NCBI GenBank assembly: GCA_038869735.1
Contig: JAWCQO010000010.1
Span: 1 to 22,654, forward strand
Direction of reading: 5' to 3'
Length of the DNA stretch: 22,654 bases
Source: Candidatus Anstonellales archaeon
GTDB lineage: Archaea; Micrarchaeota; Micrarchaeia; Anstonellales; CG1-02-47-40
Part shown: piece by piece, positions 2,826-22,050 of the stretch
How the letters are laid out: each line of letters opens with the position of its first letter
How positions within the stretch are numbered: the first letter of the stretch is position 1
Program-made: the position numbers and the translations under genes
Notes under the pieces: generated by a model
What the model saw: only the letters and a program-made list of their open reading frames with translations
Databases searched by the model: none
Told to the model about the DNA's origin: nothing

Positions 2826-2851
2826 CTAATTTAGCAAAGAATAATTCAGCT

Positions 2852-3047
2852 GGGCCGGTAGCTTAGCCTGGTTGGAGCGTTCGACTGATATAATTCGGCT
2901 TTGTAAAAGCCGAAATGTCGGAAAACTCCATAGAAACCTATTCTTCCTACAAGGAAGTTTAGGAGGAGCCCAAAACTGAAGAGGGAAGTTTGTTTTCCCT
3001 CTATGGTTCGGTTCGAAAGGACGAGAGTTCAAATCTCTCCCGGCCCA
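2852..3047 (+). tRNA. tRNA-Ile (GAU) with 121-nt intron
   Basis: Acceptor GGGCCGG pairs with CCGGCCC at the 3' end. The D-stem is GCUU/GAGC, the anticodon stem UUCGA (2880-2884) pairs with UCGAA (3013-3017), and the T-arm is GAGAG-UUCAAAU-CUCUC. The loop CUGAUAU gives anticodon GAU; A73 fits Ile. The exons meet between positions 37 and 38. CCA is not encoded. An alternative reading, with the intron hairpin at 2894-2914 as the anticodon arm (Tyr- or Thr-like), was tested and rejected: the arm would be 4 nt too long and the acceptor end does not fit archaeal tRNA-Tyr. Confidence 0.9.
2891..3011 (+). other. Large structured intron of tRNA-Ile (37/38)
   Basis: Three self-complementary elements are visible: an 8-bp hairpin (arms TTCGGCTT 2894-2901 and AAGCCGAA 2907-2914), an interrupted hairpin 2937-2963 (CCTA..CTTCC / GGAAG..TAGG), and a 7-bp hairpin (GAGGGAA 2981-2987 / TTCCCTC 2995-3001). 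CCATAG (2928-2933) can pair with CTATGG (3001-3006) to close a multibranch. The splice sites do not make a textbook bulge-helix-bulge: CUGA (2885-2888) can pair with UCGG (3008-3011), but then only one base separates that helix from the anticodon stem. Boundaries could shift by 1 nt (T at both ends). Confidence 0.75.
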
Positions 3048-3051
3048 TTCA

Positions 3052-14624: not shown

Positions 14625-14706
14625 GCCAGGCTGGCAGAGCGGCTATGCACCCCGCTGCAGAAGGTGCAGGGACGGGGTTAGAGGGGTTCGACTCCCTTGC
14701 CTGGCT
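14625..14706 (+). tRNA. tRNA-Cys (GCA) with 11-nt intron
   Basis: Acceptor GCCAGGC/GCCUGGC with U73, the universal Cys discriminator. D-stem GCA/UGC, anticodon stem CCCCG (14650-14654) with CGGGG (14673-14677), loop CUGCAG+A giving anticodon GCA, 4-nt variable region UUAG, T-arm AGGGG-UUCGACU-CCCUU. The intron is 14661-14671, between positions 37 and 38: CUGC (32-35) pairs with GCAG (14666-14669), with bulges AG^A and GG^A, a regular BHB core closed by a short loop. CCA is not encoded. Confidence 0.93.
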
Positions 14707-15574: not shown

Positions 15575-15637
15575 GCCGGTGATGAAATGAACAACCTCTA
15601 AGCAATATGCTATGAAGAGGCTAACAGCATCTGAGGC
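15575..15637 (+). ncRNA. C/D box sRNA (2'-O-methylation guide)
   Basis: Complete archaeal architecture: terminal stem GCC (15575-15577) / GGC (15635-15637); box C GUGAUGA 15579-15585; 12-nt guide AATGAACAACCT; box D' CTAA 15598-15601 (one change from CUGA); 10-nt spacer; box C' AUGAAGA 15612-15618 (one change from RUGAUGA); 12-nt guide GGCTAACAGCAT; box D CUGA 15631-15634. Both guides are exactly 12 nt, the standard spacing. Such RNAs bind L7Ae, Nop5 and fibrillarin and direct methylation five bases upstream of D or D' on rRNA or tRNA; targets are not identified here. A TATA box, AATTATAAG at 15533-15541, is correctly spaced. Confidence 0.8.
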
Positions 15638-17126: not shown

Positions 17127-17900
17127 TTATAAAGAAAAATAGGATAGGACAAACGACATCAGTCCTAAAGCTATACAGTAATACGAAAAGGTCGTGAATT
17201 TTCCACTTTTAAGTACGCTTATAAGGGCGTGTATTGAGAAGTAACCGGTTATTGCTGAAGCCAATAGCCCAGCTGCCAAGGGAAGCAAGGATTCTTCTGA
17301 TAAGGCAGCTTGATTTAATTCTATTGTTGATGCAACCAATAGGGCAGGAAGGCCAATTAGGAAGGAAAAGCGTGCTGCTTCGGTTGGCTCAAGCCCGCAA
17401 AAAAGCCCTGCAGATATGGTGGCTCCGCTTCTTGATATGCCCGGAGCAACAGAAAGGCCTTGACCTATCCCTTGAGCAAGAGCAGAAAGCGGAGTAAGGG
17501 GCTGTGAACCTGGACTAGAAAAGCGAGTGAGAAACAGTATAACCCCATTTAATATAAGAGTTATCCCAATGGCACTTAGGGATGTGTGCATTTCTTCAAA
17601 CCAACTCTTCCCAGCAAATCCTATGAGGGAGGTTGGTATCCCTGCAAGGGCAATTAACACAAATAGTTTAAGAGTATGTGGGTCTCTGCGCAGTAAACTT
17701 GCGATAAGACCCATAAGGTCATCCTTCATATATGCTATCAAGGCAACTATTGTTCCAAAGTTGAGTGCAACCTGTAATTCAATTGGGGCATTTATGTTAA
17801 GTAAGTTATTAGCTATGGCAACGTGTGCGGCGCTGGAGATAGGAAGCCACTCAGTGAAGCCTTGGATTATTCCAAGAAGCACAGCATCGTCGATGTCCAC
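17127..17900 (-). CDS. uppP: Undecaprenyl-diphosphatase UppP/BacA family
   Basis: 257 residues, an integral membrane enzyme that removes one phosphate from polyprenyl diphosphate so that the lipid carrier can be reused in glycan synthesis. Both catalytic motifs are clear: GIIQGFTEWLPISSAAH at 10-26 and APGISRSGATISAGL near 155-170. There are about seven to eight hydrophobic helices; length is near the family norm. In archaea the lipid may be a shorter or partly saturated polyprenol. The gene start lies ~22 bp from the TATA box of the divergent C/D sRNA. Confidence 0.95.
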   Translation of the reverse strand: MDIDDAVLLGIIQGFTEWLPISSAAHVAIANNLLNINAPIELQVALNFGTIVALIAYMKDDLMGLIASLLRRDPHTLKLFVLIALAGIPTSLIGFAGKSWFEEMHTSLSAIGITLILNGVILFLTRFSSPGSQPLTPLSALAQGIGQGLSVAPGISRSGATISAGLFCGLEPTEAARFSFLIGLPALLVASTIELNQAALSEESLLPLAAGLLASAITGYFSIHALISVLKSGKFTTFSYYCIALGLMSFVLSYFSL

Positions 17901-17922: not shown

Positions 17923-17930
17923 TATATAAA
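17923..17930 (+). promoter_or_regulatory. Strong TATA box for the C/D sRNA at 17953
   Basis: TATATAAA preceded by purines (AGGAAGAGG, BRE-like), centred ~26 bp before the predicted RNA 5' end near 17952. Confidence 0.65.
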
Positions 17931-17952: not shown

Positions 17953-18010
17953 GCGATGAGGAAACCGCTCCAGCCTGAAACTTATGATGAACGGAGTAGC
18001 TTCTGAGCCG
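17953..18010 (+). ncRNA. C/D box sRNA (2'-O-methylation guide)
   Basis: Box C AUGAGGA 17956-17962 (one change from RUGAUGA); 12-nt guide AACCGCTCCAGC; box D' CTGA 17975-17978 (perfect); 5-nt spacer; box C' ATGATGA 17984-17990 (perfect); 12-nt guide ACGGAGTAGCTT (17991-18002); box D CTGA 18003-18006 (perfect). Both guides are 12 nt. The terminal stem is weak (UUGCG with CGAA after a two-base offset). Predicted modified bases, by the D+5 rule, are the G of GCUGG and the last U of AAGCU in the respective targets; targets not identified. Located between divergent uppP and the redoxin gene with its own TATA box. Confidence 0.82.
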
Positions 18011-18039: not shown

Positions 18040-18597
18040 ATGGTACTTACAGAATCGAAATACATATTAAAAAACGGAGAGAGAGCGCCCTCATTTGAAT
18101 TGAGGGGCATAGATGGTAGGCTCCACAAACTTGAGGATTATGTGGGGAGTAATGCTCTACTTATCGTCTTTATGTGTAATCATTGTCCTTATGTAAGAGC
18201 AAAAATAAGAAAGATAGTTGAATTGCACAAAAAATATTTAGCACAAGGACTCGCAGTTGTTGGGATAAATCCTAACTCGAATAATCCTAATTATCCTGAT
18301 GACTCTTTTGAAAACATGAAAAAATTTGCAAGCGAATATGGAATAATGTTTGATTACTTAGCTGATGATGACCAAGAGGTAGCAAAGAAATATGGGGCTG
18401 TATGCACTCCGGACCCCTTTTTATTTGACAAAAATTTGAGACTGGTTTATCATGGGAGAGTTGATGGCGACCATGGAAAAGAAAAAGGAGAGGGCAAATC
18501 GGAACTGGATATTGCGATTGAAGAACTTATAAGAAGTGGGAAAGTTGATATTCCTCAAAAACCGAGTATGGGTTGCAGCATAAAATGGAAGGGCTAA
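18040..18597 (+). CDS. Thioredoxin-like redoxin (AhpC/TSA family)
   Basis: 185 residues. Thioredoxin fold with a CNHC active site (C46-C49, in VFMCNHCPYV) after the typical APSFELRGIDG start. Also conserved are the family's GINPNSNNPNYPDDSFENM segment and GAVCTPDPFLFD (extra Cys near 116). Likely a cytoplasmic peroxidase or disulfide reductase; no signal peptide. Another Cys near the C-terminus (MGCSIKW) could act in resolution (inference). GAGGTG at 18028-18033 is the ribosome binding site. Convergent with the decarboxylase gene, overlapping by 4 bp. Confidence 0.9.
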   Translation: MVLTESKYILKNGERAPSFELRGIDGRLHKLEDYVGSNALLIVFMCNHCPYVRAKIRKIVELHKKYLAQGLAVVGINPNSNNPNYPDDSFENMKKFASEYGIMFDYLADDDQEVAKKYGAVCTPDPFLFDKNLRLVYHGRVDGDHGKEKGEGKSELDIAIEELIRSGKVDIPQKPSMGCSIKWKG

Positions 18598-21943: not shown

Positions 21944-22049
21944 GCCGAGGTGGCAGAACCTGGTAATGCGCTAGACTTGAGTTTAATAGCGTATGACAGG
22001 AGATCTAGTGCCCTTTACGGGCTTAAGAGTTCGAATCTCTTCCTCGGCG
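21944..22049 (+). tRNA. tRNA-Ser (UGA) with 21-nt intron
   Basis: Acceptor GCCGAGG/CCUCGGC, G73 (Ser). Anticodon stem CUAGA (21971-21975) with UCUAG, loop CUUGAG+A giving UGA; a long variable arm with GCCC/GGGC; T-arm AAGAG-UUCGAAU-CUCUU. The intron is 21982-22002 at 37/38: CUUG (21976-21979) pairs with CAGG (21997-22000), with 3-nt bulges AG^U and AG^A, a regular bulge-helix-bulge. CCA is not encoded. Confidence 0.93.
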
Positions 22050-22050
22050 C

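Follow-up and report, generated by a model that had tools for sequence, protein, structure and literature searches.

The guides of archaeal C/D box sRNAs are generally regarded as fast-evolving, and no target site was common to all seven species examined (PMC7994747). In all three domains of life, G2251 of 23S rRNA (E. coli numbering) is methylated by a protein or a guide system, and in H. marismortui it is listed as guided by aFib and an sRNA (PMC11542601). Of seven archaea whose sRNA sets come from RNA-seq, three have a predicted guide for the same nucleotide (PMC4644070); U2438 does not appear in the main text of that study. Two eukaryotic RNAs, SNORD31 (RF00089) and GlsR4 of Giardia (RF02473), carry a P-loop guide, ACCGCCCCAGU, beside a CUGA box.

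The window analyzed here, a stretch of 22,654 nt, is contig C10 of an 884-kb archaeal genome in 15 contigs (G000). At positions 17953-18010 it contains what is, judging from the sequence, very probably a C/D box dual-guide sRNA for G2251 and U2438 with its own TATA promoter. This RNA would almost certainly guide a methylation enzyme to the P-loop of the large rRNA, where the end of the P-site tRNA is held. With the archaeal sRNAs sR44, sR49, and sR1 of Rfam it shares the order of boxes, 12-nt guides, a short D'-C' loop, a GC terminal stem beside the boxes, and guides directed to rRNA, whereas its guide sequences differ from theirs. The P-loop guide is nearly the same as that of SNORD31 and GlsR4, and by the N+5 rule these RNAs are therefore expected to address the same nucleotide, although their second guide region differs. 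The sRNA has the P-loop guide next to a CUGA box, as in SNORD31, but scores 26.6 bits against a gathering threshold of 40 for that family; the resemblance is possibly a convergence on a near-invariant rRNA target. Bacterial RlmB (Gm2251) also modifies this nucleotide, but as a protein-only enzyme. Finally, the two guides are conserved together across the order, whereas reviews stress the fast change of archaeal guides (PMC7994747). This kind of RNA is well known; the family itself, whose conservation among Micrarchaeota and some other archaea is unusually good, has not been described before as far as the literature searched goes, in which no paper naming C/D sRNAs in Micrarchaeota was found.

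Architecture of the sRNA

Sequence inspection of positions 17956-18006 reveals the layout C-D'-C'-D with two 12-nt guides. The features of the locus are as follows (DNA letters in brackets).

17127-17900, minus strand: uppP, undecaprenyl-diphosphatase of the BacA family (Pfam BacA), adjoining the sRNA in the nearest genome too
17923-17930, plus strand: TATA box TATATAAA, predicted sRNA promoter, 26-33 nt 5' of box C
17953-17954, plus strand: 5' strand of the terminal stem, GC, pairing with 18007-18008
17956-17962, plus strand: box C, AUGAGGA (ATGAGGA), one change from RUGAUGA
17963-17974, plus strand: D' guide (guide 1), AACCGCUCCAGC (AACCGCTCCAGC), predicted target 23S G2235 (E. coli G2251, P-loop)
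17975-17978, plus strand: box D', CUGA (CTGA), conserved
17979-17983, plus strand: D'-C' loop, AACUU (AACTT), varying among relatives
17984-17990, plus strand: box C', AUGAUGA (ATGATGA), conserved
17991-18002, plus strand: D guide (guide 2), ACGGAGUAGCUU (ACGGAGTAGCTT), predicted target 23S U2426 (E. coli U2438)
18003-18006, plus strand: box D, CUGA (CTGA), conserved
18007-18008, plus strand: 3' strand of the terminal stem, GC, pairing with 17953-17954
18040-18597, plus strand: redoxin gene (AhpC/TSA family; Pfam), 3' of the sRNA and outside the element, not beside the sRNA in the nearest genome

The four boxes are thus ordered within the 50-70 nt of an archaeal C/D sRNA, three of them being exact and box C carrying one substitution, and both guide spacers (12 and 12 nt) fall in the range of 10-12 nt. 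The altered G of box C lies opposite a U of box D, with which it forms a G.U pair. The nearest genome, Candidatus Micrarchaeota archaeon CG1_02_47_40 (MNVE01000016.1; G001), which belongs to the same family and another genus, has an exact AUGAUGA box C in its orthologue. The GCG-AUGA...CUGA-GC context is conserved in G001 and in the Rfam consensus of sR44, sR49, and sR1. An alternative box C, GCGATGA at 17953 with a 15-nt spacer, was rejected, since G001 has ATGATGA in the 17956 register and 12-nt spacers.

The initial annotation had described exact D', C', and D boxes, a box C one base off, and two 12-nt guides preceded by a strong TATA box, and the sequence is as described; the TATA element is conserved in G001 as ATATAAAGAT. 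A TATA-like motif was found upstream of 19 of 30 homologues, as compared with 3 of 30 for a control stretch.

Predicted targets in 23S rRNA

The D' guide pairs with positions 2231-2241 of 23S rRNA over 11 contiguous base pairs (10 Watson-Crick and one G.U), the N+5 position being a C-G pair at G2235, the aligned counterpart of P-loop nucleotide G2251 in E. coli. The probability of such a duplex is approximately 0.004 both for shuffled guides and for genomic 12-mers preceding CTGA. The D guide pairs with positions 2422-2432 over 7 bp, followed by an A.C mismatch at position 8 and 3 further bp, with an A-U pair at N+5 (U2426, E. coli U2438); this duplex is weak by itself (P 0.07). Hence the proposed match of the guides to rRNA was obtained for both of them, in the second case with one mismatch, and each has the Watson-Crick N+5 pair of an archaeal C/D sRNA. 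Both predicted sites are located in domain V. A tRNA target was rejected, the best tRNA matches comprising just 8-9 Watson-Crick pairs of 12.

Covariation between guides and rRNA was analyzed in 15 genomes for which both sequences were available, and it was observed at three positions, a supporting feature for an archaeal C/D sRNA. In the P-loop, C2254 is replaced by U together with a G to A change of the guide in G013, with C and G both unchanged in its congener G006. C2437 is replaced by U, again with G to A in the guide, in both G006 and G013. The same pair of changes affects C2443 in seven genomes (G071, G032, G018, G023, G052, G054, and G055) that span two families and three genera, counted per genome and not as independent events on the tree.

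It is unlikely, in our assessment, that only the P-loop guide is productive and that the D guide does not function at U2438, being an orphan, a chaperone arm, or a guide for another site such as U2021. Such a reading can draw on the conserved A.C mismatch at position 8, on the ability of U2021 to pair with D guide positions 4-12 in G000, and on the long-range chaperone pairings proposed for archaeal sRNAs (PMC4644070). It is opposed by D guide positions 4 and 10, which co-vary with changes of the U2438 region in relatives, by positions 2-3, which are conserved though unpaired at U2021, and by the D guide of Altarchaeum, which has G at position 8 and forms 9 contiguous Watson-Crick base pairs with the U2438 region of G000 23S rRNA. 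U2021 was rejected as a D guide target, since the site is not conserved; its motif is matched in just two of the rRNAs examined. The preferred reading therefore keeps U2438 as the predicted second target.

Two further observations concern the target regions. Nearly all Micrarchaeota examined keep the D guide's A.C mismatch at position 8 (alignment A4), whereas Altarchaeum pairs perfectly at this position. The 23S gene of G001 spans approximately 6 kb and has an insertion of approximately 733 nt (L172, 5174/5908) that interrupts the target of the P-loop guide (GCTGGG|GCGGTA) one base past the nucleotide predicted to be methylated; the gene also has additional insertions from helix 74 to the A-loop.

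Conservation and distribution

The orthologue in G001 is found in synteny, after uppP, and is identical to the window sRNA in 44 of 51 alignment columns, including the whole D guide (12/12) and the D' core ACCGCTCCAG (10/10), whereas its D'-C' loop has 3 nt instead of 5. The flanks have diverged, with 38 of 62 columns identical upstream and 30 of 63 downstream, as compared with approximately 43% for random pairs.

Between the end of the sRNA and the start codon of redoxin there are 34 nt, and the promoter is possibly common to both, so the element could be read as a regulatory 5' UTR of redoxin and not as a trans-acting guide. This is very improbable. In G001, where the sRNA keeps its place by uppP, the next gene 3' of it is an antiporter on the other strand and not redoxin, which argues against a redoxin leader; homologues in other genomes are situated elsewhere, and both guides match rRNA. 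A trans-acting guide sRNA is thus the preferred reading.

Of the 82 genomes of the order, 65 match a profile built from 30 homologues (A4), almost all of them just once, and other genomes of the class match it too. The D' box can be degenerate in weaker profile matches such as those of family f5 (G021). When 84,980 species genomes were scanned for a pattern comprising the P-loop D' guide and boxes C' and D, matches were obtained in Micrarchaeota, four Altarchaeales genomes, and a Diapherotrites MAG; a Heimdallarchaeota MAG also matches, but with a different D guide. The P-loop guide is common to these matches because the pattern fixes it, whereas sharing of the D guide does not follow from the construction of the scan. 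Two sets of matches were set aside. The exact pattern CCGCYCCAGYCTGA, applied across the order, gave 7 other matches without C/D architecture, most of them in open frames, and profiles served instead; a Moranbacteria match to the pattern was rejected, as it lies in open reading frames and lacks box C. A P-loop/U2438 C/D sRNA of the archaeal family was also seen in the MAG of a CPR bacterium, Kaiserbacteria (MFMA01000023.1; L147 4259-4316), the contig probably being a misbinned archaeal one.

Genome-wide scans

Both strands of G000 were scanned for four boxes at archaeal spacing. The window sRNA ranks first with a score of 25.7, followed by candidates at 22.0 and 19.2, and five simulated genomes (second-order Markov) contained no candidates with a score of at least 19. 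A relaxed scan of G000 gave 32 candidates, most of the weak matches being in coding DNA; four are wholly intergenic, and these same four come out on top in a ranking that combines box score with rRNA complementarity. That box-like motifs came together by chance in AT-rich intergenic DNA is scarcely credible, for although the box consensus is short and most weak matches of the scan fall in coding DNA, simulated genomes give nothing at the score of the window sRNA, and orthology, synteny, and covariation contradict it.

A covariance-model scan had been suggested initially as a check. The window sRNA is the best match (E 5e-10) of a generic C/D profile that was seeded with this sRNA itself, the sRNA at 15579 (see below), and four Rfam consensus sequences; these two sRNAs, both of them seeds, are the only significant matches in G000. 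In Rfam no family was matched at its gathering score, the sub-threshold matches being almost all to C/D families (sR44, SNORD31, and sR49).

The sRNA set of the genome

A second C/D sRNA and two further candidates were identified in G000.

15579-15634 of the window, plus strand: second C/D sRNA, D' guide AAUGAACAACCU directed to A-loop U2552, D guide GGCUAACAGCAU towards U2504
35696-35751 of contig C7: candidate sRNA, D' guide directed to the 16S 3' end, orthologue in G001
110248-110303 of contig C2: candidate sRNA, D guide directed to 16S A1408, sequence common to relatives

The 15579 sRNA has a degenerate box D' (CUAA). Its D' guide pairs with the U2552 region by 10 Watson-Crick pairs and one G.U, and its D guide matches U2504 poorly in G000 and better in relatives. 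It has an orthologue in G001 and is present in 74 of the 82 genomes of the order. In 13 genomes (families f1 and f5) an sRNA of this type precedes the P-loop sRNA by 0.9-4.5 kb on the same strand.

Two sRNAs within 2.5 kb had initially been taken as a sign of a well-developed rRNA methylation system. This description does not fit, because genome-wide scans of G000 point to about four sRNAs, a number that is small beside the 26 of Nanoarchaeum and near the 7 of Methanococcus maripaludis (PMC4644070). That the two window sRNAs lie close together reflects a conserved linkage of A-loop and P-loop guides and not a high sRNA density, and G000 holds a small conserved core set of predicted sRNAs.

Other observations were made alongside. 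The candidate on contig C7 belongs to a third conserved sRNA family (L105 1586-1639, L125 615-668, L119 539-587, and G000:C7 35696-35751), whose D' guide (GTGATC core) is directed to the 16S 3' end beside the anti-Shine-Dalgarno (E. coli C1533). A C/D-like candidate with a 14-nt loop is located at G000:C1 31809-31868, less than 1 kb downstream of an intron-bearing tRNA-Trp gene. Introns were predicted in three tRNA genes of the window: Ile (2851-3048, 121 nt), Cys (14625-14706, 11 nt), and Ser (21944-22050, 21 nt).

Methylation machinery and proposed mechanism

The genes for fibrillarin, Nop5, and L7Ae, the proteins of an archaeal C/D RNP whose presence was to be verified, are all encoded in G000. 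Together with the rRNA matches and the orthologue that keeps the guides, they uphold the initial annotation of a C/D box guide sRNA between uppP and the redoxin gene. The G000 Nop5 (C5 17224-18015; L076 1405-2196) is a protein of 263 residues whose alignment to Sulfolobus Nop5 begins at residue 119 of the latter; it thus lacks the usual N-terminal domain of approximately 118 residues, the part that contacts fibrillarin (PMC7994747). Neither an in-frame extension upstream of this gene nor an adjacent upstream ORF for the N-terminal domain was found. The Nop5 of G001 (C15 ~112363-113133) is equally short, and no Nop5 was found near the 23S gene in relatives. The single SpoU-type methylase of G000 is TrmJ-like and not RlmB, so no protein-only enzyme of the RlmB kind for G2251 was found in this genome.

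The sRNA would be transcribed from its own TATA promoter. By analogy with known C/D RNPs, L7Ae would bind the C/D k-turn and the C'/D' k-loop, after which Nop5 and fibrillarin would join; given the short Nop5, the fibrillarin step is one that we infer. Pairing of the D' guide with the P-loop would then lead to 2'-O methylation of G2235 (E. coli G2251), and pairing of the D guide with helix 74 to methylation of U2426 (E. coli U2438), both as in known RNPs of this kind. With its neighbor directed to A-loop U2552, the sRNA may belong to a small core set for the contacts that tRNA-CCA makes in the peptidyl transferase center.

Significance

We tentatively suggest, as a possibility somewhat short of even, that the sRNA belongs to a single orthologous dual-guide family for P-loop G2251 and U2438, passed down by vertical descent in Micrarchaeota, Altiarchaeota, and a Diapherotrites lineage, and that it would be part of a minimal set for rRNA methylation that reduced genomes have kept; in the Micrarchaeota family of the window it would work with a Nop5 without the canonical fibrillarin-binding domain, fibrillarin being recruited otherwise. 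Three features make the locus of interest: how deeply the family is conserved, the linkage of the two sRNA genes, and the short Nop5, which raises a question about RNP architecture. The order-wide guide pair, the compensatory changes in guides and rRNA, and the linkage of the genes in some families together make a traceable rRNA methylation core, and the conserved guide pair offers a natural test of which methyl groups are retained by a reduced archaeal ribosome.
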